NCBI GenBank assembly: GCA_020746105.1
Contig: CM036629.1
Span: 2,797,501-2,861,500 of the forward strand
Length of the DNA: 64,000 nucleotides
Source: Trogon surrucura
Lineage: Eukaryota; Chordata; Aves; Trogoniformes; Trogonidae
Direction of reading: 5' to 3'
Under the pieces are notes generated by a model. It was not told the origin of the DNA, searched no databases, and worked only from the letters and a program-made list of their open reading frames with translations. This document shows, in pieces, positions 5,814-36,035 of the stretch. Made by a program: the position numbers and the translations under genes. The stretch's first letter is position 1. Every line of letters begins with the position of its first letter.

Positions 5814-6458
5814 CCCCCGGGGGGATGGCAGGCGGGGCGGGGTGGGCTGGGGAGGAGGGGGGTGGGGGGGGGGGGGAGCGCTGCGGCCTCCCCCCCCCCT
5901 CCCCTCTGAGGGGGCGGCGGCCACGTCCTGTCGCCGCTGTCGCGTCGTGTCGGGCCCGGGGAGGGGGGACACACACGTTTTTCTCCCTTGTGAAGCCCAC
6001 GCCAAGGTCAGGCGTGAGGCCGCGGGCTCCACGCTTTCCCTGGCGGCGGGGGACGGGGGTGCTGGGGCGGTTCTGAGCTGAGGTGGGGGGGGGGATCCGT
6101 GGCAAAGTCGTGGGGTTAACCCTCGGCAGCGGGAGAAGCCGTTAGCTGTGTGCCCGCCCTTCCCTCGGGAGTGAGGGCGTTTCTTCAGTGGGTGTGCGAT
6201 GCCTTTAGTTTCCTTTAGGGCTCCTGGCATGTGCCCAGTAACGATTTGTTCCCGAGTGAAAGCGTCCCAGAAGGGCGACTTCAACAAGGGAGCATTGCCT
6301 TTGCGTTCAAATGCAGCGCTGCCCTTTGGAGAAGGGGCAGGAGGCCTCTAGGCCAGCTTTTGTTTTTAATAGATGAGAGGAAAATGGTGTTATTTCACCT
6401 TTGCACATTTGGTATCTTCACCCGATGCTGCCTTACCTGCTGTTTTTATCCCGATAGG

Positions 6459-9400
6459 ATGTTGGCTTCAAGGGTGTTCAGCCTCGTTGGGAAGAGGGCC
6501 ATTTCCACCTCCATCTGCGTGAGGGCGCACGGACATGGTAGGTGGCAACCGTGTCATTTTTTTCAGGAAAGATGACGAGACAGATGCTTTAGAGGAAAAC
6601 CACACGCAAGAAAAAGCTGCTCCTGGGGGTTTGGGTGAGGAAAGAATGGGGATAAGAAGGGTGTCCTGGGTTTAGCTAAAAACCCAGTCCCGTTTAGTGG
6701 TTTTTACTTTCCAGTTTAGTGTCTTCTAAAAGGGGATTGGGGAAGCTGGTGGCAGGGGATCGGTGCAGGCTGTGCCAGCAGAGGGCAATGCGGAGGTGCA
6801 GGCAGGGCTGATGGCTGCTGGGGAGGTGGCAGGAGCCAAGGGCTGGGTAGCAATTGGGGCTCCTAGGCGTTTGACAGGGTGGCAATTAGTGTGACAGCTA
6901 GAAAGAGAGATAACTGAGACATTAATCAAGTTTACGTAATGCTCTTTATGTAGATCTTCCTTCTGCTTTACTCTTATGCTCCTAAACTAGCACCCACTTG
7001 AGGCACTCTCCCTTCCTCCTCCTCCCTGAGGAACGCTTCGCCTCAACTGTCATCACTTTTTTTGGCCAAACTGTTGCTTTTTTTGTTGTAACCGGTAAGG
7101 AATGTTTGTGCAGTCGTCGGAAGCTTGACTGGGCGTCTCTTCTGTTCCTCTGTGCAGCTGGTGTTGTCAAAGCAGAGGATTTCAGCCACCCAGCCTACGT
7201 CGACCGGCGTGACGTCCCTCTCCCTGAAGTGGCCTTTGTCAGGGATCTCTCTGCTCAGCAGAAGGCGCTGAAAGAGAAGGAAAAGGCGTCTTGGACCGCT
7301 CTCTCTGTCGATGAGAAAGTTGAGTGTAAGTGGCGGGGGCTTTAATGACACAAGCTCATCTGTTGCATGTTCATTATTGGTAATTTTAGTCGAGAGGCTG
7401 CTGCAGACAGTGCTGGTCAGGGCAGCTGCTAAATGCTGCTCTTTCCAACGGCTCCGCGAGCAGAGCCGTGAAGGAGTGTTCCCGGCATCCTTGGTGCTGT
7501 TTCCAAAAGCTAGAAGCACCTGCTGTGGTGTCTGTTGGGTGCCCTGAGGTCAAGCTCAGTAATTTCTTCCTTTTCTGGAAAACCAAAAATAATTCTGTTT
7601 GTTACTTCGTCCCCATCTGCTGTCGACAAGCCAGAAGAAAAATCTCTTCGTTAGACCAAGAAGCAATTATTAGTCCAGCTGAATAAAAATGAACCCTGTG
7701 TATTTTAACATGAATGACCAGGGATCTTAGCGTCGCCAGATTTCAGCTAATTAAAGTGACTCGCAGGCGAAACTGCGTCATCTTCTCTAACCACCAACGG
7801 TGCCGTGTCCGCCCTCGGTGCTGCGAGAAGGTTTGAAACTTTTGCAAACCGCTCGAATGTTCGTAAGCGCTCTCCAAATCTAATGCTGTTTACAAGTCCA
7901 AAATCTCGTGGGCCTCTAGCGGCAAAGCTGAGAGAAACCTTTTGAGATACGTTCCCACTCAAATTATTTGTGCAGGGAAGCTTGGTGGTCAAAAACCACT
8001 CTGGGAATTGAAGGGAAGGGAGGAAAATGCCCTTTCTCCTTCTATCAGACCTTTCCCTTTCGGTCACCTTTAGGCTTTGGTCCTGTCCTTCTGAAGAGCA
8101 GCTTGACTGCAAGTCGCAGGAAAAGAAGTAATTTGATGCTCTTAATTTTTATTTTCAGTGTATCGTATTAAATTTAATGAGACCTACGCGGAAATGAACA
8201 AAGGGACGAACGAGTGGAAGACCGTCGTCGGTGGAGCGCTGTTCTTTCTTGGCTTAACCGGTCTCATCCTCATTTGGCAGAAACATTTCAGTAAGTAAAT
8301 GCTGGACGGTGTTAACTCTTAAATTAAGAGCCCAATCGATCGATACCTAATGGGAAATCAGAGAAATCTGTGAACTGCTTTGGGGTGGAGGGGTCAGAAT
8401 GGTCTATTGAACAGCTGTTCCTGGCAGTTGCTGTTTGCTACAGTCTCTGAAAACTCAGTTCTGGAGTCGTAACTTCACGGGGATCAGCGGGTACGTAGCC
8501 CAAATTTTCAGGAAGCTGACTCTTAGGAAAGTGGAGGTGGTGGAGACAGCTTCGGTGGGAGGAGAAGGAAGGGTGGTGATACACTAATGATCCCAGAGCT
8601 TCCCCTCCCTGTGGAACCTGCTGTCTTAAAAGCTTATTGCTGCCTTGGTAGTAAACATTTGGGTTTCTGCCACGTTTGGCATCCTTCCCAGCTAACGATC
8701 CTACCTCGAGGGAGCCCTCCAGCTGCCGCAAGGCAGAGCACACAGTGAAATGAGCTGCTCTCCATCGTGAGGCTTTGCTGGGAAAGGCTGGTACAAGCCT
8801 TTTACTGATGAATAAAACGGCTGTAGGGAATCAGTGGGGGAATCGGGTCCGAGCTGAGCGCTTCAGAAACTGGGTGTGGGGACCTGGGGGTTCTGGTGGG
8901 CAGCAGGATGGCCATGAGCCAGCAGTGTGCCCTCGTGGGCAAGAAGGCCAATGGCATCCTGGGGTGTGTTAGAAGGGGGGTGGTTAGTAGGTCGAGAGAG
9001 GTTCTCCTTCCCCTCTACTCTGCCCTGGTGAGACCCCATCTGGAATATTGTGTCTGGTTCTGGGCCCCTCAGTTCAAGAAGGACAGGGAGCTGCCTGAGA
9101 GAGTCCAGCGCAGAGCTACAAAGATGGTGAAGGGAGTGGAGCATCTCCCTTATGAGGAAAGGCTGAAGGAGCTGAGTGTCTTTAGCTTGGAGAAGAGGAG
9201 GCTGAGGGGTGACCTCACTAATGTTTATAAATATGTCAAGGGGGAATGTCAGGAGGATGGAGCCAGGCTCTTTTCAGCGGCGTCCATTGACAGGACAAGG
9301 GGCAATGGGTGGAAGCTGGAACACAGGAGGTTCCATAAAAATATGAGGAAAAACTTTTTCACTGTGAGGGTGACGGAGCCCTGGCCCAGGCTGCCCAGGG

Positions 9401-9852
9401 AGGGTGTGGAATCTCCTTCTTTGGAGACATTCAAAACCCACCTGGACACATTCCTGTGCGCTCTACTGTAGGTGATCCTGCTCTGGCAGGGGGTTGGACT
9501 AGATGATCTTTGAGGTCCCTTCCAACCTCTAACATTCTGTGATTCTGTGAACGTAGGTTTGAACAGACGATGTGGGGGGTGTGTGTGTGTGATCAGTACT
9601 GATGGCTTCGAGAGGCAGGGGAGGAAAAAGCTTTTTGTTGGTGAAATTTGCACCTCGGTTCCCAACTTGCTCGTTTTTGTACCGCCGCGTAATTCCCCCT
9701 GCCATTGAATTGCAGTGTACGGCCAGATCCCGCACACCTTTTCCGACGAGTGGCTGTCGATGCAGACAAAGAGAATGTTGGACATGAGGATTAATCCTGT
9801 GGAGGGCATCTCTTCCCAGTGGGATTTTGAGAAGAACGAATGGAAGAAATGA
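6459..9852 (+). CDS. COX4I1: COX4I1, cytochrome c oxidase subunit IV isoform 1
   Basis: This is the nuclear-encoded structural and regulatory subunit of respiratory complex IV in the inner mitochondrial membrane. The coding exons are 6459-6537, 7158-7325, 8159-8290 and 9716-9852, all with GT-AG borders and compatible phases. They give 171 aa (human 169). Residues 1-22 form an Arg-rich, acid-free presequence ([20 protein letters not shown]). The mature protein continues with AHGHAG and the matrix domain (residues about 30-100, including SVDEKVELYRIKF). The single membrane helix is about 104-122 ([18 protein letters not shown]), and the tail ends FEKNEWKK. The family signatures [10 protein letters not shown] and KRMLDM are intact. 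The exon at 6458 begins one base before the ATG, so exon 1 is non-coding and lies in the shared promoter. The third coding intron carries a CR1. The tail residues argue for isoform 1 rather than isoform 2. Confidence 0.97.
8879..9549 (+). mobile_element. CR1 LINE fragment with ORF2 C-terminus, in COX4I1 intron
   Basis: Sense-oriented CR1 3' end. A frame from 8896 to 9471 (191 aa) is the C-terminal tail of the CR1 ORF2 polyprotein; it includes [20 protein letters not shown] and [20 protein letters not shown]. The 3' end reads 'ggactagatgatctttgagg' and closes with two copies of ATTCTGTGA (9533-9549), the CR1 terminal repeat. The start is truncated and the endonuclease and reverse transcriptase cores are absent, so it cannot move by itself. 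The open frame over its full length suggests a fairly young copy. Confidence 0.95.
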
Positions 9853-11187: not shown

Positions 11188-14100
11188 ATGGGAAGTGGAA
11201 TGAGCAAGGTACTGGGGGGCTGGTGGGATGCTGGCCAGCACATCCCCTTGGGCAGGACTTTTCTCCTGCAGCCCAGGGGGATGCTCATTCCCAGGCCACT
11301 ATGATGCCCTAAATAGAACCATTTCCATCTTCCCTTTCTCATTGAAACGTCAAGCACTTCAGAAAGGGAATTAGAAAGCTAATGGTGATCCCCAGCTTTA
11401 TATCCGAGGAGATGAGCTAAGTGCCTGTGGGTGTTAGAGAAGTGGCAGCTGGCTTTAGATACTGGTCCCTTGGCTGGTAAAGCTGTGGCATCATCATCCT
11501 CAGAGCTGACGGGGGTCTCTGCAGGGAAATTCCCTTCCCTCACCACCTCCGGGACGTGTTTTTGCCTGGCAGCCGCACGCTGCAAAGGGGGAAGTGGGGT
11601 TTTACCACTGCTTGTTGCTCAGCTGAGCTCTGGGGCTGGCAGAGGGGACTGATTTCTGTTGGTGTCCTTAAATAACCGCTTGGTATGTGCTTTCTCCAGT
11701 TTAAAATTAGACCCTGGGACAACAACAGAGAGATCAGATCAGGGCAAGCTCTCTCTGCACAGCTCTGATGTGATTTAACACCAGGGCTTCACCCCCTGTG
11801 GACACAGCCCCACCTGCAAAGTGGCTTTTCCAGTCTCCTTGGTGCCACCAAAAACCCTCTTGGGGAGCCCAGGCTGCCAGGGGCTGGGTTGGTGCAGACA
11901 CATTTGCAGTCTTTGACTTGACGAAATGCAGGACTGGGAGTCCCCCTTTCAGTGGTAACAGCTTGTAGTGGCCACAGACGTTTGCTGAATCCAGGTGTTT
12001 GCACCCCAGGAGCGGGCTGAGGTGGTAGAGGTGGGCTGGATGTGACCCAGTGCTGTCAAAAACCCACTCTATGGCCTCTCAAACCACATGTTTTCTGCCA
12101 CGTAGGTGCAAATAAGCCCAACCTCTAATCATCTCTTCCTTTCTGTGCCTCTGGAAATTGCTCTGATGGGCTCTTACACACCGTAAATACTCTGAGCTGC
12201 CCCTTTTTCTCCTTGTAACCCTGCAGCAGCAAATTGGAGACCAGATTTGCATACTTGATGGCACTTACTGCAACAGCCTGGCCAGGAAAATGTTATAAAT
12301 AGCCTGTGCCTGTCCCCAGCTGGCAGAGACAACCTTTGGAACTATTTGTGAGAGGTGATTGCTATAGAATAGCAAAGCAAAAGGAATCTGCTATAGAATA
12401 GCAAAGCAAAAGGAATCCTGATAGCAACAGGACCACCTGCAAGCCCCTTCCTTCTGTGTGCTGAATTTTCCTGACCTCTGCACTCCTGGAGAGGGTTTTT
12501 TGGGTTGGTGGTTTGAGTGGGTTTAGCCTTTGCTGTTCAGTAATAAAGATGGTTCTTTAATTAGGGGACTGGTTTATCGTTTGGTGCCAGATGCCCTGGT
12601 CCTGCTGGCACCATGCGTGTGGCTTGATGCTCCCGTCACGTCAGGTGCACGTTGTGCCCGTCGCCTTCTGAAATCTCTCTCCTTTTTGTCACCTGCCAGG
12701 TTGTCAAAGGCCTCTACCTTGGGAACATCCGTGGTGAGTGCCTTCCCCTGCTCCACCTCCACCTCGTGCTGGCACCCCTGGCAGGGCTGGAGGAGCTCCT
12801 CTCCTTTGGGAGCTCCCTGTGCCTCCTCCTAGCTGGAGACCTCAACACCTTTTGGAGATCCAAAACCTCCAGAAAATCCCATCCCAACCACAGGAGGCCC
12901 CGTGCAGCTCAGGAAAAGGGATATCCGTGAGGAGCTGTGGTCAGCAGTCACACTGGAGCACCGAGGAACCCCTGGCATGGCTGGAAACCTCTCTGTGTTG
13001 CTGGGGCAATATTTACAGCGGGGCCAATGCCTGGCTTTCTTGCTGGGACCTCTGGCCACACTGGGGAGCAGGGCGAAGCTTCGCTTTCACCCAACAGTGA
13101 GGACAAACCAGCCTTTTCCAAATTAGCAGTCCGATTTCTGATTCCACAGGTGGTTTTAGGAGCCTGGTGAATACCCAGTGCATCCGAGGGGGATTTGGTT
13201 TAGCAGGAGCCACACTGGTCTCTCCCATCCCGCATCGTGTGGGGCGAGAGGCAGCGGGAGGGGGCTGGTGTGGGGGTCAGGGGTGATGGGTGGAGGTTGT
13301 TAGTGGCTGCTTTGTCCAGCACGTCTCCTGCAAGCGCTGCTCCTCCTCCAGATTCCGAGGACCAGGAAAACCTGCTGAGAAATGGGGTGACCCACATCCT
13401 CTCTGTCCACCACAGAGCCAAGCCGGTGCTGGAGGTGAGTGCTCAGGTTGGGAGGTGGGGAGGGTGCCTGTGGGACCACTCCTGGGGAGCAGATTTTGGG
13501 AAGGTGTGGATGGGACACGCGTGATCTTTTCCCTGCGCGGGGCAGAGAAGGGAGAAGCGATGCTGGGTTTGCACCGAATCGCACCCAGAGGGGCTCGGCG
13601 CTGGCTTTTGGAGGAGTGGGGTGTTAGGACGGGGAGGCACGACCAGGTGGGGTTTTTTTTTTAGGGGGTGAAGGTGTGCAGTCGCACACCCCCTGCCTGG
13701 TGGGGCGCCCGGTGCGGGGAGAACCGCGAGAGGGCGGCGGCGGTCCGCGGATGGCAGCACCGGGGCTGCATCCCGCCCCGGCGGGGATGTGAAAAGGGGA
13801 TTCAGCGGGACACGCAGGACCCCCTCCCCACCTCCAAAACAGGGGTGCCTGGCCACCCTGGCTTTGCCTGCCTAGCTCCCCCCCTCCCCACCTCGCTTTG
13901 CTGAGCCTGAAGCGCTGCAGATCCCTCTGGCTGTGAGTAGGGGAAACTGAGGCAGGAGGGTGGGTTGATGCCAGAGGTGCTGGCCGGGTCTTTAGTGCAC
14001 AAATCCTGCTTGTGCGGACCCGTGGGCTTGGGAGAGCCTGGAAGAGAGGGAGAAATTTGGGCCATGCTGCTCATCTTGCAATGGATGGCCACGTAAAACT

Positions 14101-17100
14101 TGCACTTCATCCTGGCGTCGGACCCTGTGCCAGCTCCCAAATCTTGCGGAAGGCAAAGGAAATCGCTTGGATCCCTCATCCTTTGGGACCACGCTGGAAA
14201 GGGAGCTCTGGCGAAACACCAGTTCGAGTCTTTTCCGTGCTGAGGCATTGAGTAACGGCGGAGAAAGAGAGAGAAGGAAGGAGGCTGCATAAAATGGGTG
14301 CAGAGAAAACGGCTCGTGGCCGGGGAAGGGGCAGCAGCTGGGGCTGGTGGGGCTCGGGACGTGGCCAGACGGGTGGCAACCGCACGGCGAGCTTACAACA
14401 CGGAGCAAGCCGCCGGGCCCTGCGGAAAGGGGAACCGGAAAAGTATGGTGGGTTGAGCAATGTGTCAATCACAGCTCCGGGTCAGGAACCGCAAACCCCA
14501 GCGCCGTTCCCATGCGTGGCTCAGCTCGCCGAGGCGGGATGGGGGCACCTGGCCCCCTTGGGGAAGGGGAAGCCGCTGGCAGCCCGTCGGTTAATCTGGG
14601 GTCGGGGTGCGGGGTCGCTTTGGCTGTGGGGATGTCGTGCTGGCACCGGGCACAGCCAGGTTTTGGGAAGCCGCAGCCCGTCGTGGCTCATTCTGGAAAA
14701 CCCGACAGTGTTTGCTTGCTGGTCCCAGTGTCCCTGCCTCGTGCGTGGTCCCCATCTACCTGCCAAGCTCCCGTGGGCACCCTCCATCCCCTGTGTGCCT
14801 GGGAGCTGCGGTTTGGTCGGGGATGTGGATGAGGAACCCGCTGGATCCGTTTCACCACCCTGCCCCAGCTTCTCTGGGTGGGAAGCAGGTCTCCGGCACG
14901 CCACGGGGAGCCAACAAGTGCCACCTCGCTGTGGCTCCTTGTCCCCATCCTGCAAGAGGCTGTGGGATGGGTCTGGGGAGGATGGATGGGATGGAGAGGT
15001 GATGCATGAGAAAGCCTGCCCGTGCTCCTCCTTGCAACATGGGTCTTTCCAGCACAGAAATATTCCCATTCCCATCCTGCTCTGCCCCTTCCTTCCCTAA
15101 ACAATAATTTTTTTCCGACCTCCCTGGGCTATGTGCTTGGGCTGCATCAGTCCGGGGGGGGAACATTTTGGCAGGCAGCTGATGGAGAAGGGCTAATCCC
15201 CGGCACTTGGTTGTTTCAACTCTGGCTGGCGAGATCTTCATCGTTTTGCAAAGGAAAAAAAAAAAAAAAATCTGAAGAAAAAGATCTAATTTTAGCCCGC
15301 AGCGGGGAGGATCGAGGAAGCGATGTTTTAAAGAAAGCAATCTGACCTACGCCAGCATGCGGCAGGATGATTTATTGTGTATTAAAAAGGACCGGGAGGA
15401 AATAACTCATTGATGAGAGTGACTTCATCAGTGCGTGTTCGCACACATCTTCCTGGCCTGTCGGGGCTCTGGGAAAGGGGTGGCTCAGTTTTTTTTGGGA
15501 GGGGTTCTTGAGCATTGCAGCAGTTCCTCACAGCCCAGCCTGTCCTCTGGGCTGAAACGAGGGGGAAAATAATCAGGAGTGGGTTGGATGCCACCCATCG
15601 TGTTTCTCCCTGCCCACAGGGAATGGAGTGGTTGCACCTGGAAGTGGATTGTGGCTTTTCCCTCACTGAAGGGTCAGCTGGGGAGAGGGAACAGAGAGAA
15701 ATGGGGGATTCCATGGGTTTGGGGGTATCTTACTCCATCTTTGTATTGCAGGGCATGACCTATCTCTGTATCTCAGCCTCGGATTCCTCCAGTCAGAACC
15801 TGTAAGTCGTTTGCCATCCTTTTGCCTCCCAGCATCGCGTGTCGGTAGTTGTTGGTCAATAAAAGCCCAGATTCTGCAGGCTGAAGGTTCAGTCAGTGAA
15901 AACTCTATATCATCGCTGAGCTTGACAAAAGCTGCAGTTCATTCTCAGGGTGTAAATAGCATTTGTAGGGCTTAAAATCTGCTTCTGTTTGCAGCCAGTA
16001 AATTTAATTTCCCATGAAATTTCAGAATTATTCTACTGGGCAGGGTTGAAAATCGGTGCATTTTTTTTACTGGTTTGGAAAGACGATGATTTGTGTTGGT
16101 CTTCCAGACATTCTCCTTGGAAAGAGACATAAAATATTTATTAAACCAACATGTTTCTACTTTTTTTTCCCCCACGCAAAGCTTAGATGCTTGTCTTTTA
16201 ACAATGTTCTGGAGATGAAGCTGGTGAGAGGTGCTCAGCCTCAGGCTTTCATGGGATGTGGTGCTGGGGTGTGATGGGTGCTGGTGCTGCCGGCACTGGG
16301 GAGGGTCACAGCACCTTGCTGCTGCTTTTGGACTCCACAAGCCATCTGCTGCAACCAGAAAATCCCAGCTCAGAGGGATATTTTTTCACCAGTCAAACCC
16401 TAATAAAGATTGGAACATTGTGCACAGTGGCTGGACCAAGCCCCATTTGTGGAGGTGCTGGTTTTCCAGCATTCTGGCAGCAGCCATGCCCGGGGGGGGT
16501 GTGTGATTCCGCTTGCTCATGCTCCCGCTGAGCGGAAAGAGAAGCTTTACAAGAAAACCCTGCCTCAGCAAGAACTGGGCTTTTCGGTTGTTATTTTTTT
16601 CTCTCCTCTCATTTCTTTGCATTTGTTGCATATCTACTGTAAGGACAAAAAGGAAAAGGGAAAAAAAAAAAGAAAAAGAAGACTTGCTGCTGGAAGGAAG
16701 GCTTATTCAAGGAACTGTTTTGTGCTTGTCAGTTTATGCCTCGGATTTCGCAATCCTGGTGAACTTCTTGTCCTCCAGAGGAGATTCTTATGACTCAGGA
16801 CCTCAGTGGCTCTCAGCATTACCAGGCTTCATGCTCTGATCCCATGCTTTGAGGCTGGAAAAGCAGAGAGAGAGAGAGCTTTCCTGAGGGGGGAAACCCC
16901 CCCCCCCCCCCCCTACAAAAAAAAACCCTGTGGAGTGAGTGAGGATTGTAGAGGTAGCTGAAGTGCTCACCTCCCTCCCTGTGGGATGGGTTGGTAGGGG
17001 GATGCTGTGTGCACAGAGCGGGCTGGAGGCTGGCAGCAAGCACCCTCAGGGAGCTGGAGGTGAGAGCATCACGTCCTTGCATCCCTGCTGGTGCCAGTCA

Positions 17101-20100
17101 AGGGGCTGCAGTGGAGGACCGGGATCCAGAGAGTGTGGATCTGTGTCCTGGGGGATGCTATCTGCTTGCAAAGATGAGTAGGATGAGGAGAAATCCCCCC
17201 AGGGCAAGCTTTAGGCAGGGAAAGGACTCCTGAAATGGCAATGCCCTGTTTGTTACGGTGGTTGAGGAGGAGGCATGTTTGCAGAGGAGCGATGAGCTGA
17301 TGTCTCCTTCCAGTGCTGAGAGGCTCCATGTTTTTGGTATGGTCCCCATTTCTCCTCCTCTTCTTGGGCAGCAGAACCCCTTGCTATTTCTTAACATGTC
17401 CTTGGTTCCTTAGAAGGTGCCTGAGCCTTGTCCTTCCAGGGAGGCGTAAAGAGCATCCCCTTCAATGGACCAGCAGGGATGGCAAAGGTTTTGGAGGGTT
17501 CTGCCTCGTTGTCACTGGGAATCCAGCTCTGGGCTCTAGGTGAGGGGTACAGTGCGGGGAATAGCTCTGTGGTAGCTCATGCCTTGGCTTCTGAGAAATC
17601 AGGAAGGCTCACGCCCACCCTATCACGCGGAGGCAGAGGAAGTCCGGCACTGGGACAGAGACACTGCCAAAGGGACCCTCTCCTCCTCCTCCTGAAAGAA
17701 ACGGGGCTCAGAGAGTTCCACCGGCAGCCCAAGTTACCCAGAATCAGGTTTTCTGCCTCGAAACTGCCCCACGGCTTGGTGGGACTGCGAGGGCGAGCAG
17801 GGTCGGGCAGCGTTTATTGCAGAATAACTGGCTCGACGGGGATGCCCGTTGTCTGCGGGAGGGATCGGCAGCAGCTGCCAGCATCCCAGGCAGCGATGAG
17901 CAGGAGGGGTGCATCTCAGCACAGCCTGCATAACCCTCCCACAAACGCCCACTTCTAGCTCCTCAGTACACATGAAGTCAGTTATCCTGGTTTCTAGGTC
18001 TCAAGCATGTTGCAGTTGAGCTGCCAGAAAGTCCCAGCTCCTTGGCTTGCCCTGTTTTGCTGCAAAAATCCCTGGTTTAGGGTTAATATGTTCAGGATAA
18101 CCTCTCATGTGGGGGATGCTCATGTCCCTCAGGCACAAGATGATGCCTTACCCTGGAGGCTGCCTCTCTGACATCCTCCCTGAGCTGCTTTGGCTGATAG
18201 CATCACCCTGTTCCTAATTTCTCTGGCAAGCAAGAAATCCCCTGGAAAGTCTCCCAGGTCATTTCCTTCTTGGCAGATGAAGATCAGCTCCTCTGCCTTC
18301 ACCTGGCAGAGGAAGGATCTCTGCTCCCACCCTACGCCGGTGGCCCCAGGGTGGTGGGAAGTCCCAGAGACGGCCACAACTGCTGCTGCTGGTGTGACAG
18401 GGCACCTTGCTGAACTGGACAGCCCTCCCATCCTCACCTCCCTGCCTCTCTCCTTGCAGGCTGCAGCATTTTAAGGAGTGCATCAAGTTCATCCACGAAT
18501 GCCGGCTCGCTGGGGGAGGCTGCCTCGTCCATTGGTGAGAGCTGCTGTCACCACCTCGTGTTCTCGTCCGTCCTCTGGGAGGTGGGCATGGGCCCCCAAA
18601 AAGTGTCCTCGGGGTCGCATGTCACTTGTAGCGGGGAGGAAGAGGAGGAGAAGGCAAGGAATATTGGGAGGATGACAGGAGAAGGTGTGTGGTGCCGAGA
18701 CCCGTGGGTTTGGGTGGTTCGTGCCTTAAAAACTTGATAAAGGAGGGGACAGGGGGAAGCCACCTGCCTGGGCCACCAACAATGCCCCCCTGTCCGTGCA
18801 GCTTCTTACTCCTACCCAGACCACAGCTGGGGAACCTCACTAGCGCTCCAACACATCCCATGGATGTCCCTCCATGGTGGGAATACCAGTCCCTGATGCT
18901 TCTCTCTCACACCGTGCCAGCCTGGCTGGGGTCTCCCGCAGCACCACCATCCTGGTGGCCTACCTCATGACGGTGACAGAGCTGGGCTGGGAGGGCTGCC
19001 TGGCTGCCACCAAGGCTGTGCGGTCCTACGTCAGCCCCAACTTGGGCTTCCAGCAGCAGCTGCAGGAGTACGAGGCGACCTTGCTGCAGGAGGTATGTCC
19101 CATGCCGATGGCCCCTTATATACGTGTCTGCAGAGTTTGCAAGCAGGCACAGCTTTTTTGCATGCAGCTCTCTGCGAGGGCCAGCTGTTCGCCCGAGCTG
19201 GCTTTTTGTGCATGTTATTTATTGCCTGGGGATTTTAGGTTTTGCATAAAAAAAAAAATAAATAAAAAATATATATATATAAAAAAGAAGTGCCTAGACA
19301 TCATGCGAGTGCACTTAAAAAGGCTCTTTAAAACCCCAGTGCTTTTCTCGAGAGTTCACTTTGGATGCAGCGGGAGGGATGGGTGAGCAACAAGTCCCCT
19401 GGGAGCCCTTGGAAGGGTGCTGGGCCAGTTCCTGGGAATGCAGCACAGCGGGAGCCAGAAAGGGGGACAGGAGGAGGAAGAAGGCTCTTGCGAGCGGCTT
19501 TGGGATGTCTGGGCATGCTTGGATCTGGCTGGGCTTCCTCTGACAGCAAGTCCTCTGCTTTTAGAGGCAGGCGACATCAAAAAAGCAAGCATTGACAGAG
19601 GAAATCTCTTTCCTCCCCCAAATGAGGCAGAACAGGAGCCCAGGCTATGTGGGTCCCCGTCCTGTGCAAGGAGGGGATGTTGTAGCTGAGCAGAGCTGGA
19701 TGCTGGCAGCTGGGAGCAACAGCGTCATGTTTACTCGGGCAAGCACTAGCTGCAGAGATCAGAGCTGCACTTTTCACCCAGAAAGCCTTCGAAAGCAAAA
19801 GGAAAGACTTTTAAAGGCAGAGCTCCCTCTGCCCATACTGGACCCTCCTCCTCCACCCACCCTCAGGGTCCACCATGAAGGACCAGCATCCAAAACTGTC
19901 CCGGGAGGGCACACAGGCTGGATCTGTGTGAGGAAAGAGTAACCCACATGTCCAAGATACCTCACAGCCTACATCACCTTTAAAATTGGTCCCATCCCTG
20001 GAGGCAAAGCCCTCACCATCTGCTTTAGCCACGAGCATTGTGCAATGGCCCTGCAGCAAACGGCGGCAGGACCCGGTGGTCCCTCTGGCCACACGGAGTG

Positions 20101-23100
20101 GTTTGAGGGGATTTCTCTCCTCCCGAGAGGGAGGCAGGGACAGCATGTGACATTGACCTGAATGTCAGCTCCTTCCCTGCTGCAGAGTCCCCTTCCTCGG
20201 GTGCTGGAGGGAGCGGGCAGGCACTGTCACATGAGGGAAGCAGCCCTGCCCCGTTATCACTGGCTTGCAAAAATACCCACGGAGGAGGGCGAAAAATGGT
20301 CCGAGGGATTACAAAACACTCGCGATGCTGGAGATTCCCTGTGGGGCTTCCCCTGGCTGGGCCAAGCTGTCCCCAGCCCTTCCCACGCCCTGGCTGTGTC
20401 CCAGCACAGACCGTGATGCCAGGTTTTCTCTGTTGTCCCCCCTCTTCCATCCCACCTATTCCTCCGGCTCCCCAAAACGCCGGCTGGCACCAGCCTTCCC
20501 TCCCTTTCCCGTAGATGCTGCTTTTTCGTCACCTCGACGTTTCGCTGTGGGCTTTGCAAACACTTCCCCGAAAAATCCTGAAGGCAGAGCCAAGGATGGA
20601 GGCGCTTGGATGCATTTTTTCGGAGCCCGAGGGGTTGAGCAAGAGCCGCCTATTACTTGAAACACCCTGCGTTCCCCGCTAGCGCAGTGTTGAGGAGGGA
20701 AGCTGCTGACGGCTCTTGTGGGCGGACTGAGGCTCGCACGGCTCCGGGGGCGAGGGCTGGGTGCCAGAGCAGGGAGTGTTCTGGCATTACTCACCCACAG
20801 CTGCACTTGAAGAAGACGAAGAGTCAGGATGGATGCTGCAGTCTGATACCCTGCTTGCAGCTCGTTCCTTGAGCCCTCCGTGTTTGCGAGAGGAAGGGAC
20901 TTGGGGGCAGGGCAGGCGAGGTGGATGGTCAGGGGTCCCTGCATGGCCAGAAGCCTGTGGGACCTGGTGCCACGTGGGTCCTGCACCTTGCTTCATGCCA
21001 AGCACCAGCTGGCTTGCTTACCTTGGCTGCGGAGGTCACGCCTTGTTCCCTTTCGTGGTATTTGTGGGTTTTTTCCCCACGTGTATAGGTAGGATGCAGG
21101 AGTAAGGGTATCGTAACCTGAGTTTCAGCTATTGCTGAGTATAAAGGGATAAAGCAGAGGTTGAATTTCCTCATTTAGCCCAGCTGTCACCCCGGCAATT
21201 TGGAAACACCGTACTTGAGAGTAGACATGGATAAAGGCTGGGCAGGCTGTCTGGGAGGAAAACCCTCATTTATTGTTGACTAAAACCTGCAAGGAATGGA
21301 TCAGTCCTTCTGGGGACCTTCTCCCCAGGGCTGTGGGTGAGTATCCCTCGGTGCCTCCGTTTCCTTGATCTGGAGCCAGGACCTCAGACAAGACCCTGGG
21401 AGGTAGAAATGGGGAAGATGCTCTCTGGGACTGGCCAGCCAGCCCTTCACTGCAGGAAGCATGCCTTGAGCGTGCAGCTGTGGTTTTTTGAGGTGGCAAA
21501 TGGTGCTTATTGGGGCTAGATGGATAAGAAGGAAGGAAAGGACCAAGAGTGGCAGCAGAATGACGGGTGAGGTTAGAAAAGGAAGTAAATGAGCGCAGAG
21601 AAGACAGTGTGGATGTGAGGGAGGGCACACTGGGTGAGGGACCTGTCCCGCTCTTGCCCCAACACCCACCTGCAGTGTTGTCACACCATGACTAAGCTCA
21701 CTTTCTCCCTGCCCCGGTGCTGTCCCAGATGGGATGAGTGCTCCTGGCTCCAGGAGAGAGAAGGAGGGCAGAGGGTTAGTGGTCAGCAGTGGAGGAAATG
21801 GCCTGTAACCACTTCTTGCTCTGGCTTTCAAAGGAAACGCCTGGCAACAGGAGCAGGGTGCTTCCCCTGGCCTCTTGCTGGCTCCTTCCCTTCTTCACTG
21901 GAGGGTGGGAGCCAGCTCTGAGGCTGGGAGATGGGTGCTGAGCCTCAGTGGGTGCTGTGCCTTAGTGACCAGGCTGGCTTCCCCATGGAACTTCATCCCT
22001 TCAGATCATTTATGTTGGCAGCTGACACGGATGCTTGCCCCAGATCCTGTCCCAAATCACTTCCCAGGGGTTGTTTTCTAGCAAGGATATCATGTCTGGC
22101 TTTTGGCGTCCATCCCTTGCATGGGGATCTTCCTGCTTGCTGTTGATAAGCTCACAGCAGCCATGGTGAGTCCCGCTGTCCAAGGGAGCGGATTTGGGAA
22201 ACCCAGGCATTCCCAGCGGAAATCCCCTCTGCCCGAGCTGGTATTCCCTGGCCATAGGAGAGAGAGATGCTGCCAGGGTCAGTCTCAGACTTCCTTCTCT
22301 TGCAGCTTGCGGTGCCCGTGCAGCCCTGGCAGGGCAGGGCTGACCTTTGCCACGAGCTCGGTGGCTCCCGGCTGTGGGGTGCTGCTGCAGCACCCCAGGA
22401 AGCCAGAGCCATTGCAGGGACATCTCACCCTGGGGGTGCTTAACTCTTGGGAACTGCAATCTGGGCCCATCTTTGCCGTTTCTCATCACAGTATGGACTG
22501 TCTCTGGCTTCCCAGCCATCTCCAGACCTCAGCCTGCTGCCAGCTGGCCGCCGGCCATGCTCCTGCTGCTGGAGCAGCCTTTGCAGCCGGCTACAGAGAT
22601 GTGGGAAGACAAGATGCACCCCACTACCACCCAGCAGTGAGCAAAATGCTCTGCAGACAAACCTGCCTCAGCATGCAAGAGCTGATGAGGCCATGCAGCT
22701 TGTGGCGGCGAGTGCAGCCCATCCCTGCGCTGCCACGGCAGGGAGAAAGCGTGGGGAAGCTTTGCTTACCGGAATTCAGGCACACAAGGCACAGCAGCAG
22801 CTTCCTGGCAATGAAAAGTAAATAAAGCTGCTGTCCCAGCTGCAGCCAGTGCGGGAAGCTGAGGGTGCTGCCAGCTCTGTCTGTGCCGGCTTGGGGAGGT
22901 GGGGAGGACTCGGTTGCAGGGGGGACACTGTTGCATCTCTCATATGACGCGGTCCTGTCGTGTGGTGTGTGAGCTCTTGCAAAGCTGACACCTTCCTGGG
23001 GATCCCTGGCTGAGGCTGCAGCTGGGATGCAGCGGGCATCACCTCAGCTCACTGCTTCCCGCCCTAGTTGTTGCAAGCCCCAGCTCCCGAGTTTGGACAG

Positions 23101-23316
23101 GTCTCAGCCCCTGGGTGACCCTAACAACCTCTTTTGGCTTTGTCCTGGCAGTACCGCGCCTGGATCCGCCACGACTATGGCAGGAACCCGTTCAAGGACC
23201 AGGAGGAGCTGCAGTGTTTGCTGGCCCAGCAGAAGGAGCAGCAGCTGGGGAGCAGGGATTGCTCCTGGCTCTCAGCTCCCACCTACCAGGCAGGTGGCAG
23301 ACGGATGAACAGATAA
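11188..23316 (+). CDS. DUSP22-like atypical dual-specificity phosphatase
   Basis: Small Cys-based protein phosphatase expected to remove phosphate from Ser/Thr and Tyr. Coding exons: 11188-11208, 12700-12733, 13352-13434, 15752-15801, 18460-18534, 18921-19092 and 23152-23316. All have GT-AG borders and joinable phases; total 199 aa. The N-terminus MGSGMSK has Gly2 and Ser6, the N-myristoylation pattern of DUSP22/DUSP15, so membrane attachment is likely. The catalytic set is complete: general acid Asp57 (SASDSSSQNL), Cys88 and Arg94 in HCLAGVSRST. These positions equal those I recall for human DUSP22. Other DUSP22-like blocks are GLYLGN, NGVTHILSVH, FKECIKFIHECRL and VAYLMTVTELGWE. The C-terminus (YRAWIRHDYG onward) departs from DUSP22 after about residue 160. 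The gene lies between COX4I1 and IRF8, where mammals have no such gene that I know of. DUSP15 is the alternative family assignment. Confidence 0.92.
12361..12418. repeat. 29-bp perfect-looking tandem duplication
   Basis: The segment starting GCTATAGAATAGCAAAGCAA occurs twice head to tail (12361-12389 and 12390-12418), differing only in the last base. It lies in the first coding intron of the DUSP22-like gene and looks like a recent replication slip. Confidence 0.95.
16897..16913. repeat. C17 homopolymer
   Basis: Seventeen C residues in a DUSP22-like intron, preceded by GGGGGGAAA so that a short G/C hairpin is possible. A GA repeat (about 16865-16878) lies just upstream. Runs of this sort are prone to sequencing error. 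Confidence 0.85.
19269..19280. repeat. Short (AT)n run
   Basis: AT repeat flanked by A-rich sequence (19248-19290), in the last intron of the DUSP22-like gene. Confidence 0.8.
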
Positions 23317-27379: not shown

Positions 27380-27962
27380 GTTGATCCAGGAGGGAACTGG
27401 GAACTGCCTGGAAATGGACTGGTCTGGAACCGGGGAGACTGGTTTTGAACTGGGTAAGGACTGACGTGAGACTATGGCAAGGTTAGTCTGGGACTGGAGG
27501 GGGATTGATGTGGGACTGGGGATGCGTTGACCTGAGACTGGAGGGACTGGTCTGAAATTGGGGATGGACGAATCTGAGACTGGGGAGACTGGTCTTGGAC
27601 TGGGGATGGACTGATCTGGGACCGGGGTTACTGGTCTGGAACAGGGGAGAACTGAGCTGGGACTGGGGATGGATTGATCTGAGATTGGAGAGTCTGAAAT
27701 TGGGGATGGACCAATCTGAAACTGGGGAGACTGGTCTGGGACTGAGGACGGACTGGCTGGGAACAGGGGACGGACCAGTCTAGGACTGGGGAGACTGATT
27801 TGGGAGAGGGGGGGACTGCTCTGAGATTGGGGAGGGACCAGACTGGGATGGAGGAGACTGGTCTGGACTGGGACTGGGGAGGCTGGTTGGGAACGGGGGA
27901 GGGACCGGTCTGGGACTGGGGATGGACTGGACTGGGGAGACGGGTTGGGACTGGGACTGGGT
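27380..27962. repeat. G-rich degenerate minisatellite upstream of IRF8
   Basis: Nearly 600 bp made of variants of a short core such as GGGACTGGGGA joined with GACTGGTCTGGGACTGG and ATGGACTGATCTG. Units vary in length, so the period is irregular (about 10-12 bp core, higher-order about 35-45 bp). The plus strand is strongly purine and G-biased. It ends about 390 bp before the inferred IRF8 start of transcription. The long frames across it on both strands are by-products of the repeat. Confidence 0.93.
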
Positions 27963-28041
27963 CAATCTCGGGGGAGCTGAGCTCAGCCCGGGGACGGACC
28001 CGGGTGAGACCCCCCTGGGCGGTGCCGGCCCCGCCCCTGAC

Positions 28042-28105
28042 CACGCCCTTGACCACGCCCTTGACCACGCCCCCGCCACGCCCCCGCCACGCCCCCGCCA
28101 CGCCC
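28042..28105. promoter_or_regulatory. Six phased CACGCCC boxes (KLF/Sp-type) in IRF8 promoter
   Basis: CACGCCC starts at 28042, 28054, 28066, 28077, 28088 and 28099: three 12-bp units (GACCACGCCCTT type), then three 11-bp units (CCGCCACGCCC). The complement GGGCGTGG is the KLF/Sp consensus core. The array sits directly upstream of the GAS element. The motif is seen; binding is inferred. Confidence 0.8.
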
Positions 28106-28124
28106 CCCCGCCGCCCCAGCTGAT

Positions 28125-28133
28125 TTCTCGGAA
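28125..28133. promoter_or_regulatory. GAS (STAT1-type) element of IRF8
   Basis: TTCTCGGAA fits TTCNNNGAA and lies about 190-220 bp upstream of the likely start of IRF8 transcription. The mammalian IRF8 (ICSBP) promoter has an interferon-gamma-responsive STAT1 site of this kind at a similar distance, with, as I recall, the same core. This would make IRF8 interferon-gamma inducible here too. Confidence 0.8.
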
Positions 28134-28192
28134 AGGCGCGGGCTTCGGAGAAAGCCGCGCCAGCCGCTCGAGCCCCGGCGAGGCGGCTCCCC

Positions 28193-28262: not shown

Positions 28263-28321
28263 CCACTCCGTGCGCGGGGGGCGGGGTCGGGGAGAGGGAG
28301 GTCCCGCCTCCCCAGGACTGC

Positions 28322-28329
28322 TATAAAAG
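28322..28329 (+). promoter_or_regulatory. IRF8 TATA box
   Basis: TATAAAAG just upstream of GC-rich leader sequence. It predicts a transcription start near 28350, about 30 bp downstream. Confidence 0.85.
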
Positions 28330-29968: not shown

Positions 29969-32900
29969 ATGTGCGACCGCAATGGCGGGCGGCGGCTCCG
30001 GCAGTGGCTGATCGAGCAGATCGACAGCGAGCTCTACCCCGGGCTCATCTGGGAGAATGAAGAGAAAACCATGTTCCGCATCCCGTGGAAACACGCTGGG
30101 AAGCAGGACTACAACCAAGAAGTAGATGCCTCTATCTTTAAGGTAGGGATAGGTGATAAATGCCTTTTTCTTCTGGGCTTTTGCTGACAGCCCGGCTGGA
30201 GGGAGATGTCTGTGTTCTCTCTGCTTTTTGTATCTCTGACCCTCGCAGGAGATGCCTCACGCTGCAATTGGTCTCACAGACTCTTTTGGGGATATTTTTT
30301 CTTTTTTTGTCAAATGTTGGTACAAGTTTTAAGTTTGTTTTCAGAGTTTTTGCATCCTGGTTTGGCTTGAGAAAGGAGCTGGATGAGCTCCTTCTGACCT
30401 GGTCTAAACTTCTTATGAGGCTATTCTTGCTAGAGGGCTGGATTTACCAGAAAACTAAAAAGACTTTGCAGGAAGCAAGGACGTTTTGCATTTCACTGAA
30501 GGGGAGGGGGGGGGGAGAGGGGTTTTCCAGTTTTGGGGATAAGCTGGAAAAGTTCATCCTGAACATAAAGGTCAGACTTTTCCCCAGGAATTCCCTTCAC
30601 TCTGCCCTGACTTTCAAATACCTGTACCAGTGAGCGAGTTCACTTTCAGGACAGTAATATCTGGTTACCAGCTGGTTTGGGAGGCCAGAGTTATGAATTC
30701 AACCATCTGAAGATGGAGGTATTTATTTTATAGGTATTTTTTTTATATATATAAGAAGTTTTGTTTAAAAAACCACATACTTTGCAATCTCCATCCAGTG
30801 GTAAAATATATTCTCCCACCAAAAGCACAAGCAATGTTCTGATCTTGAAAAGAAGCCAGCTTTCATTGATTAGTCAGGACCCAGAAAATGAGGTTTACTT
30901 TGATTTTTAACCGAGGTGTTACCAGATCATTAGGAGCACGACCTCTTTGCCAGCGATTCCTTGCCTCCCCGGCAGCTCCCGACCTGGCGGTGCAGAGGTG
31001 AAGCCACATCTTATGACCTTGACCTCAAACCTGGGTGCTGCAGCCCTCCTTGCTCCCAGGTGCACCTGTCCCCACGTTTGGTGGCTTTGCACATGTCCAC
31101 AGTCTAGGAGCAAAGTGGCGAATGCGCGCGGGATGGTTGGGAGGGCGCGAAAGGCGAGGAGAGCAAGATGCTTTCTGCAACCTCAGCTCCTTTGCGTGTG
31201 GGGTTGAGGAGGTTTGCAGAGCTCGTGCGGAGGGTTCTCATTTTTGTTGTTGCCGTCTCTTTGTTTTAGGCTTGGGCTGTTTTCAAAGGCAAGTTCAAAG
31301 AAGGTGACAAAGCGGAGCCGGCCACGTGGAAGACGCGGCTGCGCTGTGCTTTGAACAAGAGCCCCGACTTCGAGGAGGTGACGGACAGGTCTCAGCTGGA
31401 CATCTCGGAGCCCTACAAGGTCTACAGGATCGTGCCGGAGGAGGAACAGAAATGTGAGTGCCCCGATACGGGACTGGCCCCTGGTGCAGGTCGGTCCTGT
31501 GGTCTTGTGCTTCCTGGCCACGCTCTGCTCTCGAGCTGTGATGCTTTGCTTGTCTTGCTTTACAGATGATGTCCCCTGCGTCGCTGTGGTGGTAGGGAGG
31601 CGGAGGAGGAAGGACAGCCTTTTTTTTTTTCTTCTTTTTTCACCACAAACAGCTGCTTAGGAGATAGAAGCTTACACGATGCTGCAGTTATCCCCTATCT
31701 TGTAAGGATATTGTAGAGGAAAGTTCAAAAATCCTCCTGTTGCGGGGGGTACTTGAGCCCCAATGCCTGCCCTGGGTGGATGGCAAGCAGCTGCAATAAA
31801 TCCCTTCTCTCTTACCCGGCAGTGATTAGAGTAGCAGTAATTTCACAGAGAGCAGTTGCTGCTGCGATGTCCGGTGCGGTGCAGGTTGTGCTAAGTATAT
31901 CTCTATTTGTGGTTAGGCGCGTGTGTGCTTTTTTTTTCTTTAAAGTAAAAACCTCGCAAAAAAAAAAAAAAAAACCTCGTTGTCAGGAAATCTGCCTTTA
32001 GCATCTCTATCTCCAGCCACATTCACACGGGGGGCTTGCTGCTGCTATGCAAATGGCAGTGCAGGTTCCCACCAAGCATGACTGTGCATGGGGTGGCTGG
32101 TGGAAAAAGGAGAAGCAGCAGCAGCCCTGGTCTCTGGGGGGCTCAGAAAAATTAAAAATTAAAGCCAGCTCCTCTGCTCTAACTTGGTCTCTGCTACTGT
32201 CTGGTGCAATGGATTGCAAACAGGTTTTTGGTCCAGAAAAGCAGCTCTAGAGAGGGCTGCGAGCCCCACCGAGGTGCTGCGCTGTGGTTCTCGGTTTCAT
32301 AACTTTCATGGGGCGAAGGGTTTCTAAAAGTCAGCGGTGAGACGAGCTGTGGCTGGGGGGCACGTGTGTCCTCACTGCATGCCGGCCTCTCATTCCAGGC
32401 AAAGCGAGTGTCGCCAACGGGAGCAGCCTGAACGACGTCACGGAGATGGACTGCAGCTCCTCTGCCATCGATGACCTCATTAAAGAGGTAAGTCCTCACC
32501 GTTGGCTGCAAGCCACCTTGGCTGGAGGTGAAGGGGTGGTGTGGAATTCCCTGATTTAAAAAAAAAAAACAAAAAACCATTGCCTTCCTAAAACTCAGCC
32601 TGCAAAGCTTTGGGGGTCATTGTGGAGAGCAACACTGGGTTTTGCAGTTTGTGGGCCAGCACTGGGACACGCTTTCCATTTGCAGCCAGGCGGGTGAGAC
32701 CTTCACGGCGGGGATAGAGGCTGTTTTGGAGCTCTGATCTCCTTCTTGGTGGTGTCACCTTGGGTCTTGAGGGTGTTATTTGAGTGTCTGGCCTGGGGAA
32801 TGCCAAACTTCATCTTTCTAACCTGAAAAGACTCCTTGGCATCCTGCAGGCATTGTCATTCAGACCCTCTCTGAGTGCTCCAAGTGTTTCAGTGCATGGA

Positions 32901-35900
32901 AACAGCTGTCTGAGGCTTCAGACCTCCTCTGATCTTGGTTGTCTGCTCTTGCACAGCCCCCCTGTGTAGATGAATACTTGGGGATCATCAAGAGGAGCCC
33001 CTCACCCCCGCAGGAGACCTGCAGGAACCCCCCGATACCCGACTGGTGGGTGCAGCAGCCCAGCCCTGGTAAGTAGCTGACAGCTCATGCGATGTTTAAT
33101 GAGACTGAGATTTCTTTTTTGTTCAGGGCGTGAAAAAACCTCACCTTATTGTGCTGCAGTGCATAATAGACAACAGTTGGATTTTATCTTCCTTATTAAA
33201 AATGCTTAAAGTACTAATTATGAACACTGTGGTTGGTACCAGGTGCCCAGCAGCGTGCATTGCAAAAAGTTAAATCTGTCTGGGACTATTTGCTGGTGTC
33301 TCCTGTGTGGGAACTGGGAAACACGATGTGTCTGGGAGAGAAAACTGGGGTGGGGGGGTAGTGGAGGGGAATGGAGGGGATTGGGACCTGGGAGCTGGGC
33401 ACACATGCTCAAGTTGGCTTTCTCTCTGCCCACAGCGTTGCCTCTGATGAATGGATACTCTGGCTACGAGCAGCATCACTCGAGTAAGGCAGCTACCCTG
33501 CTTGGTTGTGGGCTGTGGCCGTTAAATGCTTCTCTGGGGCTCACATGTGATGGCAAAAGGCGGCGCTGACTCTGCTCCTTGCCTTGGGGAGGAGGCTTTG
33601 CTCTGGGTTTGGGAGGTGCTGCACCCTTCTGAGTATCCACAGGCTTTGCATGCCAAAGAGGGATGCATTCTGCTTGGTGTCATGTGGTCCTGGCACGGGG
33701 GTGCTGCCTTGGGATGCTGGGGTCAGCCGTGATGTTGGTGTGGGGGAGATCTGCCCACATCGAGGGAGATGTGGAGCAAAGGCAGTAGGACAAGGTTCAG
33801 TATTGGGAGCTCTTGCTTGCTGATCAGCGCGGCTTCCAGGCTGAGCGCTGGAGATGTCCTCTAGCCAAGCAGGAGGTCTCTTCCATCAAGTGAGACTTGC
33901 TCTCAGGCAATTTTGCTGCTCTTACGGGGTCTGGGCATTGCAATGAAGAGCAGGCAGGGTTTTTCCATCTCCTAATGGGTGGTGTGCATGCTCATCACCT
34001 CCTAGGTTACTCCCAGATGGTGATCAGCTTCTACTACGGTGGGAGGCTGGTGGGTCACATCACCACCTCGTGCGCCGAGGGCTGCCGGATCTCGTTCAGC
34101 CACCCCTCGAGCCACGGCGAGAAGCTCTACGCTCCGGATTCCTTGGAGCACGTGCGGTTCCCTTCGGCCGACACCATCCAGAATGACCGGCAGAAGCAGA
34201 TCACCAGGAAGCTCTTTGGGCACCTGGAGAGGGGTGTCCTGCTGCACAGCAACAAGCAGGGCATCTTCATCAAGAGGCTGTGCCAAGGCAGGGTCTTCTG
34301 GAGTGGGAACACCATGGTTTACAAGGACAGGCCCAACAAACTGGACCGGGATGAGGTGGTGAAGATATTTGATACCAGCCTGTTCTTCAGAGGTTTGTAG
34401 GAGCATTTCCCTCCTTTTTTTCCCTTCATCTGCTTTTTATCTGCTTGAAAGGGTGAAACCTTTGGCCTTGGAGCACTTTGGAGTCATCCCTGATGGGTTA
34501 CACAAGTGCTTGGGATGAGTAGCTGGTGCTACCAGATGGAGGAGGGAATGGCCTCACTCGGCTGCACAACACAGCTGGCTTCCCTCCGTGGCATGGTGCT
34601 TGGTCCCAAAGCTGCGTGGCAAAGGCTGGCAGCTTGCAGCAGGCAGCTTCCAGCTGTTCCCCTCTCCTTGCAGAGCTGCAGCAGTATTACAACAACCAGG
34701 GCCGTTTTCCAGAGAGCCGGGTCATGCTGTGCTTTGGCGAGGAGTTCCCGGATGCGGTGCCGCTGCGGTGTAAGCTCATCCTCGTCCAGGTACGGAGGGG
34801 CTCCTTTGGAGCTCTGCTGTTGAATTCCCCACCTTCTCTTTTATCCTTTTTCTTTTACACCCCACAAGTAGGGCTCTAGCTTCAGCCACAGACCATTTGG
34901 GTGCTTGAACTGGTTGGGTGGCAAGTGTGATGTGAGCATCAGCTTATCTGCAGCCTCCCAAGAAGTTCTTAGGCTGTTGCTTCTCAGGGGCTCCTTCATC
35001 TGGGTAGATTACGTTTGTAAACAGAGCATCCAGATGGCAAAATCTTTTCTAAACTGCTTGCAAATCTGTTCTTTTCCTGTTCCTGCTGCTCAGCACTGGG
35101 ACCTCTGCCCTCACCTTTGGGAAATGGGGGAATAAATCCCTGGAATGGTTGAGTTAAAGGACAATCTCAAGCTGAATGGCCAACAGATGTGATGAACAAC
35201 CATGGTGGACAGCAGTGGGGTTGGGAAACCTTTGGGAGGGTGAAGGAGGAGATTGGATGAGAGGCAATCCCTGTGGCTCTGGCCAGAAACTTCTCTTTGG
35301 AGAAGCTGACGCAATTCTGGGATCTCAAAGGCTTGGGGCATTGCATAGGGTGTTTCTGGAGCCTGCACCCAGTGTGGGACCCTCCTTGGGCCAACAAGGG
35401 TGTGGCTGGAGGGACGGGGGATGGAGGGTACAGGGAGGGTGTTGCAGAGACCCACCAAGACTCTATGAGGTGCTGGAGAGGATTTTTAGAAGTGCAGAAG
35501 TGCTCTTACATCTCCCTGCACAACTTTCTGACCTGCCCAGCTCTTCTTGCCCTGGGTGCCTGCACCAGAATATCACTCCATGTTCCTCACCTCCCTATAG
35601 CTCTGCTGGGAGAGGAGCTCTCATGACTGCCTCTTCTCCTAGAGGTGCTCCTAGTTAAGACAGGGTAGCTTGTGGAGTTGGACCTGTTGGCCAGGGTGGT
35701 CCTGACCACCCGGGTTGATTTGGAATGACTGCTCTGCTGTGTCTCTCCCACCCCATCCCCTGCTGCCTGGGCTGGTGGCGGTGGATGGCAGCAGCAGGAG
35801 ATGCCCGAAGAGGTTCCTCTTCATTCAGTGTCTTCATGATTTTTCTTTTTTTGCATAGGTGGAGCAGTTATATGTCAGGCAGGTGGTGGAGGAGGCTGGA

Positions 35901-36035
35901 AAGACCTGCAGCAGTGGCCCCATGCTCCCCATAGCTGATGAGACTCAGCACGACCAGGTGTACAGGATCTTCCAGGACATCTGCGCCACGCACCAGCGGC
36001 CGCTCTTCAGAGAGAACCAACAGATCGCAGTCTGA
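29969..36035 (+). CDS. IRF8: IRF8, interferon regulatory factor 8 (ICSBP)
   Basis: Nuclear transcription factor that directs monocyte, dendritic-cell and B-cell genes, alone or with PU.1 and BATF partners. Coding exons: 29969-30142, 31270-31453, 32399-32487, 32957-33068, 33436-33483, 34006-34392, 34674-34789 and 35859-36035. All splice sites are GT-AG and phases agree; 428 aa (human 426). The ATG lies one base into its exon. The DNA-binding domain (about 7-114) holds the IRF tryptophans W13, W28, W40, W60 and W78. Residues T80 and K108, altered in human IRF8 deficiency, are intact. Residues about 120-200 are the variable linker (CKASVANGSSL; ends YSGYEQHHS). The IRF-association domain (about 204-385, SQMVISFYYGGRLV to LRCKLILVQ-type text) precedes the conserved end FRENQQIAV. 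The linker and IAD resemble IRF8 rather than IRF4. The gene follows a DUSP22-like gene in the same orientation. Confidence 0.98.

Follow-up and report, generated by a model that had tools for sequence, protein, structure and literature searches.

DUSP22-A, an IRF8-side relative of DUSP22 in Trogon surrucura: a very probable block duplicate older than crown jawed vertebrates, most likely lost in therian mammals

The window analysed here is a stretch of 64,000 nucleotides from Trogon surrucura in which the genes EMC8, COX4I1, DUSP22-A and IRF8 lie in this order, the last three in the same (+) orientation. DUSP22-A, the subject of this work, encodes a member of the DUSP22/DUSP15 phosphatase family and comprises seven exons (11188-23316) whose joined open reading frame of 600 bases specifies 199 amino acids plus a stop codon; all six introns have GT-AG borders. 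tblastn searches of the window, in which human proteins served as queries for the neighbours, place it within the COX4I1-IRF8 interval, and its stop codon is separated by ~6.7 kb from the start codon of IRF8 downstream. An earlier note on this DNA had described a complete seven-exon DUSP22-like gene between COX4I1 and IRF8 in the orientation of IRF8, and the exon joins, splice borders and tblastn matches confirm that description.

A phmmer search of the PDB with the window protein returned human DUSP22 (1wrm, E 1.2e-66) and DUSP15 (1yz4, E 4e-49), with the next family, DUSP10, at ~1e-24. Pfam DSPc was matched at 97.6 bits (cut-off 33.5), and the phosphatase family PF22785 barely over its threshold (27.5 vs 27). 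The protein carries G2, D57, C88, S93, R94, N128 and the HCxxGxSRS signature, and thereby has, with its DSPc domain, the features of an atypical dual-specificity phosphatase of the DPN-triloop type. In DUSP22, mutation of D57, S93 or N128 lowers efficiency 40 to 500 times, according to the relevant section of one study (PMC7589817). Loss of N128 through the change from ANPN to SPN was considered and rejected, N128 being the second Asn, which is kept. The residue check bears out the note's further claim of intact catalytic residues and a myristoylation-type start. Relatedly, a model of the catshark orthologue (P0072) superimposes on the DUSP22 structure 6lvq with a root-mean-square deviation of 1.0 over 154 columns. 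By analogy with DUSP22, the window gene most likely encodes an active N-myristoylated membrane phosphatase. Its product is predicted to be myristoylated at Gly2 and located at the membrane, where it would dephosphorylate membrane-proximal signalling proteins, as DUSP22 does on Lck and in the JNK pathway; the parts of a review (PMC13147768) and of PMC7589817 that deal with DUSP22 give Lck Tyr394, UBR2 and also JNK signalling as its substrates and pathways.

Searching with the window protein yielded 783 protein matches, the best 120 of which were examined; 112 of these 120 were organism-named, and many were labelled DUSP22-A, DUSP22-A-like or dusp22a. The bird sources among these best 120 included ratites, galliforms (Lagopus, Coturnix, Bambusicola, Callipepla), ducks, hawks, songbirds and more, with no row named for chicken. 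The other tetrapod and lungfish sources were alligator, turtles, tuatara, lizards, snakes, platypus, frogs, axolotl, caecilian and lungfish, and the fish were two sharks, Polypterus, sturgeons and teleosts. Occurrence in this genome alone, a result that the earlier note had said would refute its proposal, is not what is seen: orthologues occur across jawed vertebrates, from sharks to platypus.

The window gene, human DUSP22 and a taxon-based selection of 48 of the 360 fetched proteins entered the phylogenetic tree, for which Porites lobata, a coral, and one coral-like sequence served as outgroup. The window gene falls in a DUSP22-A clade of 25 rows (support 100/99) whose members come from sharks, ray-finned fish, lungfish, amphibians, reptiles, birds and platypus, and which stands apart from the DUSP22 clade (14 rows, 98/92) and the DUSP15 clade (9 rows, 100/99). 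Within the DUSP22-A clade the tree leaves the base between shark, ray-finned and lobe-finned lineages without a resolved order; then follow lungfish (89/80), amphibians, platypus (88/75) and sauropsids, with the zebra finch protein grouping oddly with Harpia (93/79). A core tree of 149 columns, made without two long rows, recovered the same groups (DUSP22-A 100/99, DUSP22 92/90, DUSP15 100/100). Such a tree, with reptile, amphibian, fish and shark sequences, was the check that the earlier note had proposed, and it puts the gene outside bird DUSP22 and DUSP15, as an old paralogue. The duplication is older than crown jawed vertebrates: sharks are in the DUSP22-A clade, and a split of DUSP22-A from DUSP22 after sharks, or after sharks and ray-finned fish, was rejected by the approximately unbiased (AU) test at p 0.031 in each case, a modest margin for tests that were named after the tree had been made. 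When DUSP15 was the query, the organism-named DUSP15 proteins among the best 120 of 415 matches were all amniote, and corals ranked beside lungfish DUSP22; DUSP15 of amphibians and fish may be lost or too diverged to appear among those best 120.

The only mammal among the 112 organism-named rows (best 120 of 783) was platypus (P0045). Reading its row as a mislabelled mammalian DUSP22 was rejected (AU p 2.5e-52). The lowest bit score among the best 120 was 279, compared with 324 for platypus and 298 for catshark. An ordinarily divergent therian orthologue would be expected above the 279-bit floor, so that its absence points to loss, and therian mammals most likely lost DUSP22-A; a fast-evolving orthologue could lie below the floor. 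The earlier note had written of a loss in mammals. Because platypus is firmly within the DUSP22-A clade, the loss reads as therian and not mammalian: the claim fails for mammals as a whole and is likely to hold, on the best 120 of 783 matches, for therians.

The chromosomal regions in question were treated in a 2006 paper on Fox gene regions, reportedly by Wotton and Shimeld. Its relevant passages set out four related regions: DUSP22-IRF4-FOXQ1-FOXF2-FOXC1, DUSP15-IRF10-FOXS1-COX4I2, COX4I1-IRF8-FOXF1-FOXC2-FOXL1, and an IRF9 region (PMC1634998). They also report that in X. tropicalis a dusp family member shares a scaffold with cox4i1 and that the zebrafish region on chromosome 18 contains a dusp gene, call the arrangement similar, irf8 included, in two pufferfish only, and describe the dusp gene of that region with the words 'unlike chicken and mammals' (PMC1634998). 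In the part that bears on this, a 2025 study of IRF genes in birds places IRF4, 8, 9 and 10 in one paralogon (PMC12220609). Because DUSP15 belongs to the same published paralogon, there is a set of at least three copies, not a pair. The earlier note's proposal of a duplicated ancestral DUSP-IRF pair is well supported, by the tree and the published maps, in that an old paralogue is tied to IRF8, and needs correction in that DUSP15 is a third copy.

We consider it very probable that DUSP22-A is the copy of the DUSP22/DUSP15 family belonging to the COX4I1-IRF8-FOXF1 region, that it arose by a block duplication before the divergence of sharks, and that it was likely lost in therians and likely encodes an active phosphatase. 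An ancestral block with a DUSP and an IRF gene would have been duplicated ahead of the split between sharks and bony vertebrates, and the genome duplications of early vertebrates would be the simplest occasion for it. The products would be DUSP22 with IRF4, DUSP15 with IRF10 and DUSP22-A with IRF8, the last kept in sharks, ray-finned fish, lungfish, amphibians, reptiles, birds and platypus. Databases already carry a name for the gene, and the four-fold history of the region, with a dusp copy in it, was described in 2006; to this the present work adds the presence of DUSP22-A in platypus and in birds, including galliforms. In the open-licence literature we found no account joining DUSP22, IRF8 and synteny, no account of DUSP22 gene loss in therians, and neither 'DUSP22-A' nor dusp22a together with dusp22b; 'dusp22a' alone does occur.

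That the gene instead arose within one lineage, as a copy of bird DUSP22 or DUSP15 inserted beside IRF8, is scarcely credible. The window protein does have 56% of core residues in common with pigeon DUSP22, but its core identity to pigeon DUSP22-A is 95%, its introns are intact, orthologues extend from sharks to platypus, and grouping it with bird DUSP22 or with bird DUSP15 was rejected by the AU test (p 3e-8 and p 2.8e-5, respectively). Several points do weigh against dating a block duplication of DUSP22-A to the two rounds of early vertebrate genome duplication (2R). DUSP22-A and DUSP22 are joined in the tree (98/93), but neither DUSP22-A with DUSP15 (p 0.22) nor DUSP22 with DUSP15 (p 0.215) was rejected. 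Sharks and ray-finned fish are represented in the tree by neither DUSP22 nor DUSP15, amphibians have no DUSP15 there, and lampreys and amphioxus are absent from it, so that the 2R date leans on the sharks in the DUSP22-A clade and on the published maps. As for those maps, the 2006 passages put irf8 and the dusp gene of X. tropicalis on different scaffolds and leave zebrafish irf8 unplaced (PMC1634998), and the legend for the IRF8 loci in a 2010 IRF paper names no DUSP gene, while the material from the same paper does name DUSP15 for IRF10 (PMC2885996). An old local duplication, tandem or segmental, that separated DUSP22-A from DUSP22 before jawed vertebrates, with the IRF linkages arising later, would draw on the same freedom in the order of the three clades and on the fact that topology alone is blind to mechanism. 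It is nonetheless improbable, given the published linkage of DUSP22 with IRF4, of DUSP15 with IRF10 and of a third dusp gene with the COX4I1/IRF8-type region, and given the single paralogon of IRF4, 8, 9 and 10, for which one block event needs the fewest steps.

One further point against the main interpretation, as regards a functional gene, comes from the pace of change in birds. Over 151 core columns in ten species having both genes, the mean pairwise difference was 0.196 for DUSP22-A and 0.171 for DUSP22, with DUSP22-A larger in 31 of the 45 (non-independent) pairs; pigeon and duck differed by 0.152 in DUSP22-A vs 0.033 in DUSP22. This excess and the altered tail of bird proteins may reflect weaker constraint on DUSP22-A in some birds, and some bird lineages may be relaxing or adapting the gene. 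A reading in which DUSP22-A is active in most vertebrates while its constraint is relaxed in some birds, where it is heading for loss as in therians, is conceivable but rather unlikely. The altered tail motif, the pigeon-duck difference and the zebra finch branch of 0.39 (P0048) speak for it; on the other hand, duck accounts for most of the excess (pigeon-Anolis 0.152 for DUSP22-A vs 0.166 for DUSP22; duck-Anolis 0.212 vs 0.159), the catalytic residues of the window protein are intact, and the bird proteins span many orders, ratites and galliforms among them (best 120 of 783).

The C-terminal tail of many DUSP22-A proteins has a typical motif, Y-x-L-P-Y-x-x-Y followed by W-x-N-R, which is a common and not a defining feature and is missing from the window protein. 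LPYxxY after residue 150 was present in 38 of the 120 DUSP22-A matches (best 120 of 783, partial proteins counted), in 1 of the 121 proteins that make up the DUSP22 set (120 matches and P0350) and in 0 of 116 in the DUSP15 set. The motif is clear in two sharks, Polypterus, lungfish, frogs, turtles, alligator and platypus, and altered in the listed birds and most of the listed squamates and in many teleosts. The tail comparison set positions 23250-23316 of the window (exon 7) against P0001, P0072 and P0014; the DUSP22 set has a different, perhaps homologous, tail, ending in TET in 44 of 121. In the catshark model, residues 185-213 have a predicted local distance difference test (pLDDT) score below 50, that is, a predicted disordered tail, and packing of the motif onto the catalytic domain was rejected because no contact is predicted there. 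This predicted disorder makes a short docking motif more likely than a part of the fold. Estrildid DUSP22-A models (P0048, P0064, P0115; zebra finch, Lonchura) finish in an unrelated tail, an oddity for which altered splicing, a frameshift or a faulty gene model could be responsible.

The coordinates of the genes are collected in Table 1. Upstream of coding exon 1, an AG after a pyrimidine-rich stretch is a possible acceptor and suggests a noncoding 5' exon starting at ~11132. The remaining EMC8 exons had no tblastn match inside the window, nor did FOXF1 or GINS2 at E 0.01. A CpG scan from 4500 to ~37000 (600-base windows, step 300; GC > 0.58, CpG ratio > 0.6) found CpG-rich stretches at 5100-6299, in the gap between EMC8 and COX4I1, at 14100-14699, in DUSP22-A intron 3, and at 27900-28499, upstream of IRF8, and none at the DUSP22-A start codon. 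The intron 3 stretch is a possible alternative promoter or IRF8 control element. An imperfect tandem array with units of ~22, 42 and 142 bases, GGACTGGTCTGGGACTGGGGA-like, lies at 27390-27943, just upstream of IRF8. No RNA family reached its gathering score in the window. The label of an Anolis carolinensis DUSP22-A protein (P0042) starts in one source with 'Interferon regulatory fa', perhaps a name slip from an adjoining IRF8 and a hint of linkage.

Table 1. Positions in the window of the DUSP22-A coding exons and of neighbouring genes
Feature	Position	Strand	Remarks
DUSP22-A coding exon 1	11188..11208	+	MGSGMSK, myristoylation-type start
DUSP22-A coding exon 2	12700..12733	+	AG/GT borders, frame kept
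DUSP22-A coding exon 3	13352..13434	+	
DUSP22-A coding exon 4	15752..15801	+	general-acid loop, D57
DUSP22-A coding exon 5	18460..18534	+	3' end within HC of signature motif
DUSP22-A coding exon 6	18921..19092	+	remainder of signature HCLAGVSRS; N-loop N128
DUSP22-A coding exon 7	23152..23316	+	stop included; C-terminal tail shortened
EMC8 5' coding exon	5400-5185	-	tblastn, 77% identity over 78 aa, residues 3-78; divergent from COX4I1
COX4I1 coding exons	6459..9849	+	tblastn, 62-92% identity per exon
IRF8 coding exons	29969..36032	+	tblastn, 38-95% identity per exon

Because DUSP22-A and IRF8 are co-oriented and separated by ~6.7 kb, DUSP22-A may share the blood-cell expression of IRF8; its use of control elements of IRF8 is conjecture based on where it lies. 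A dusp22a-labelled gene is reported to go down 24 hours after poly(I:C) in salmon macrophage-like cells, in the relevant part of PMC5591513, which fits a blood-cell role and is no proof of one in birds. A bolder proposal, which we regard as speculative and probably wrong, is that jawed vertebrates ancestrally had a module of an IRF4-group factor and a membrane DUSP under shared blood-cell control, and that therians alone dropped the IRF8-side phosphatase, which had its own conserved tyrosine-rich tail motif. If it were true, human and mouse myeloid signalling would operate without a brake used by most vertebrates. More generally, DUSP22-A is a jawed-vertebrate gene, more than a name for a teleost duplicate, and is probably invisible in human and mouse models; as an extra phosphatase it is relevant to work on DUSP22 in T cells and to the IRF8 loci of birds, reptiles and fish.

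Among known systems, the closest are the proteins named DUSP22-A or dusp22a in fish, frog, reptile, bird and platypus, with which the window protein forms one clade and has a core identity of up to 95%; compared with Harpia DUSP22-A (P0001) it is 14 residues shorter, all at the C terminus, and has no LPYxxY. It shares its type of region, the chromosome-16-type Fox region, with the dusp gene described for X. tropicalis and D. rerio, as far as the passages on that region go (PMC1634998). Those passages hold chicken and mammals to be without the gene, and the proteins found here in four galliforms related to chicken and in platypus (best 120 of 783) bear on that statement, shifting the likely loss to the therian branch. 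Platypus is not among the mammals named there, and the paper used an early chicken assembly, build 1.1 (PMC1634998), which may account for the missed bird gene.

Like DUSP22 (JKAP, JSP1), the window protein has the signature, a myristoylation-type start and the DPN-triloop residues, to judge from the catshark model it would have the same fold, and its gene neighbours a member of the IRF4 group, in the way that the published map has DUSP22 linked with IRF4 (PMC1634998). Unlike human DUSP22, it falls in a separate clade, with 60% core identity and another C-terminal tail. At 14 core positions the listed DUSP22-A and DUSP22 proteins have different modal residues, each at ≥85% in its group (e.g., G vs E at position 82, T vs V at position 96), and at position 39 the window protein deviates from the residue typical of DUSP22-A. 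At several of the 14, for example 82 and 96, DUSP15 and the coral-type rows match DUSP22-A, and hence DUSP22 is the one that changed. DUSP15 (VHY) belongs to the same family and to the published paralogon that includes the region of the window gene, and is distinguished by its separate clade (100/99), by a core identity of 54% between the window protein and leatherback DUSP15, and by a different C terminus.

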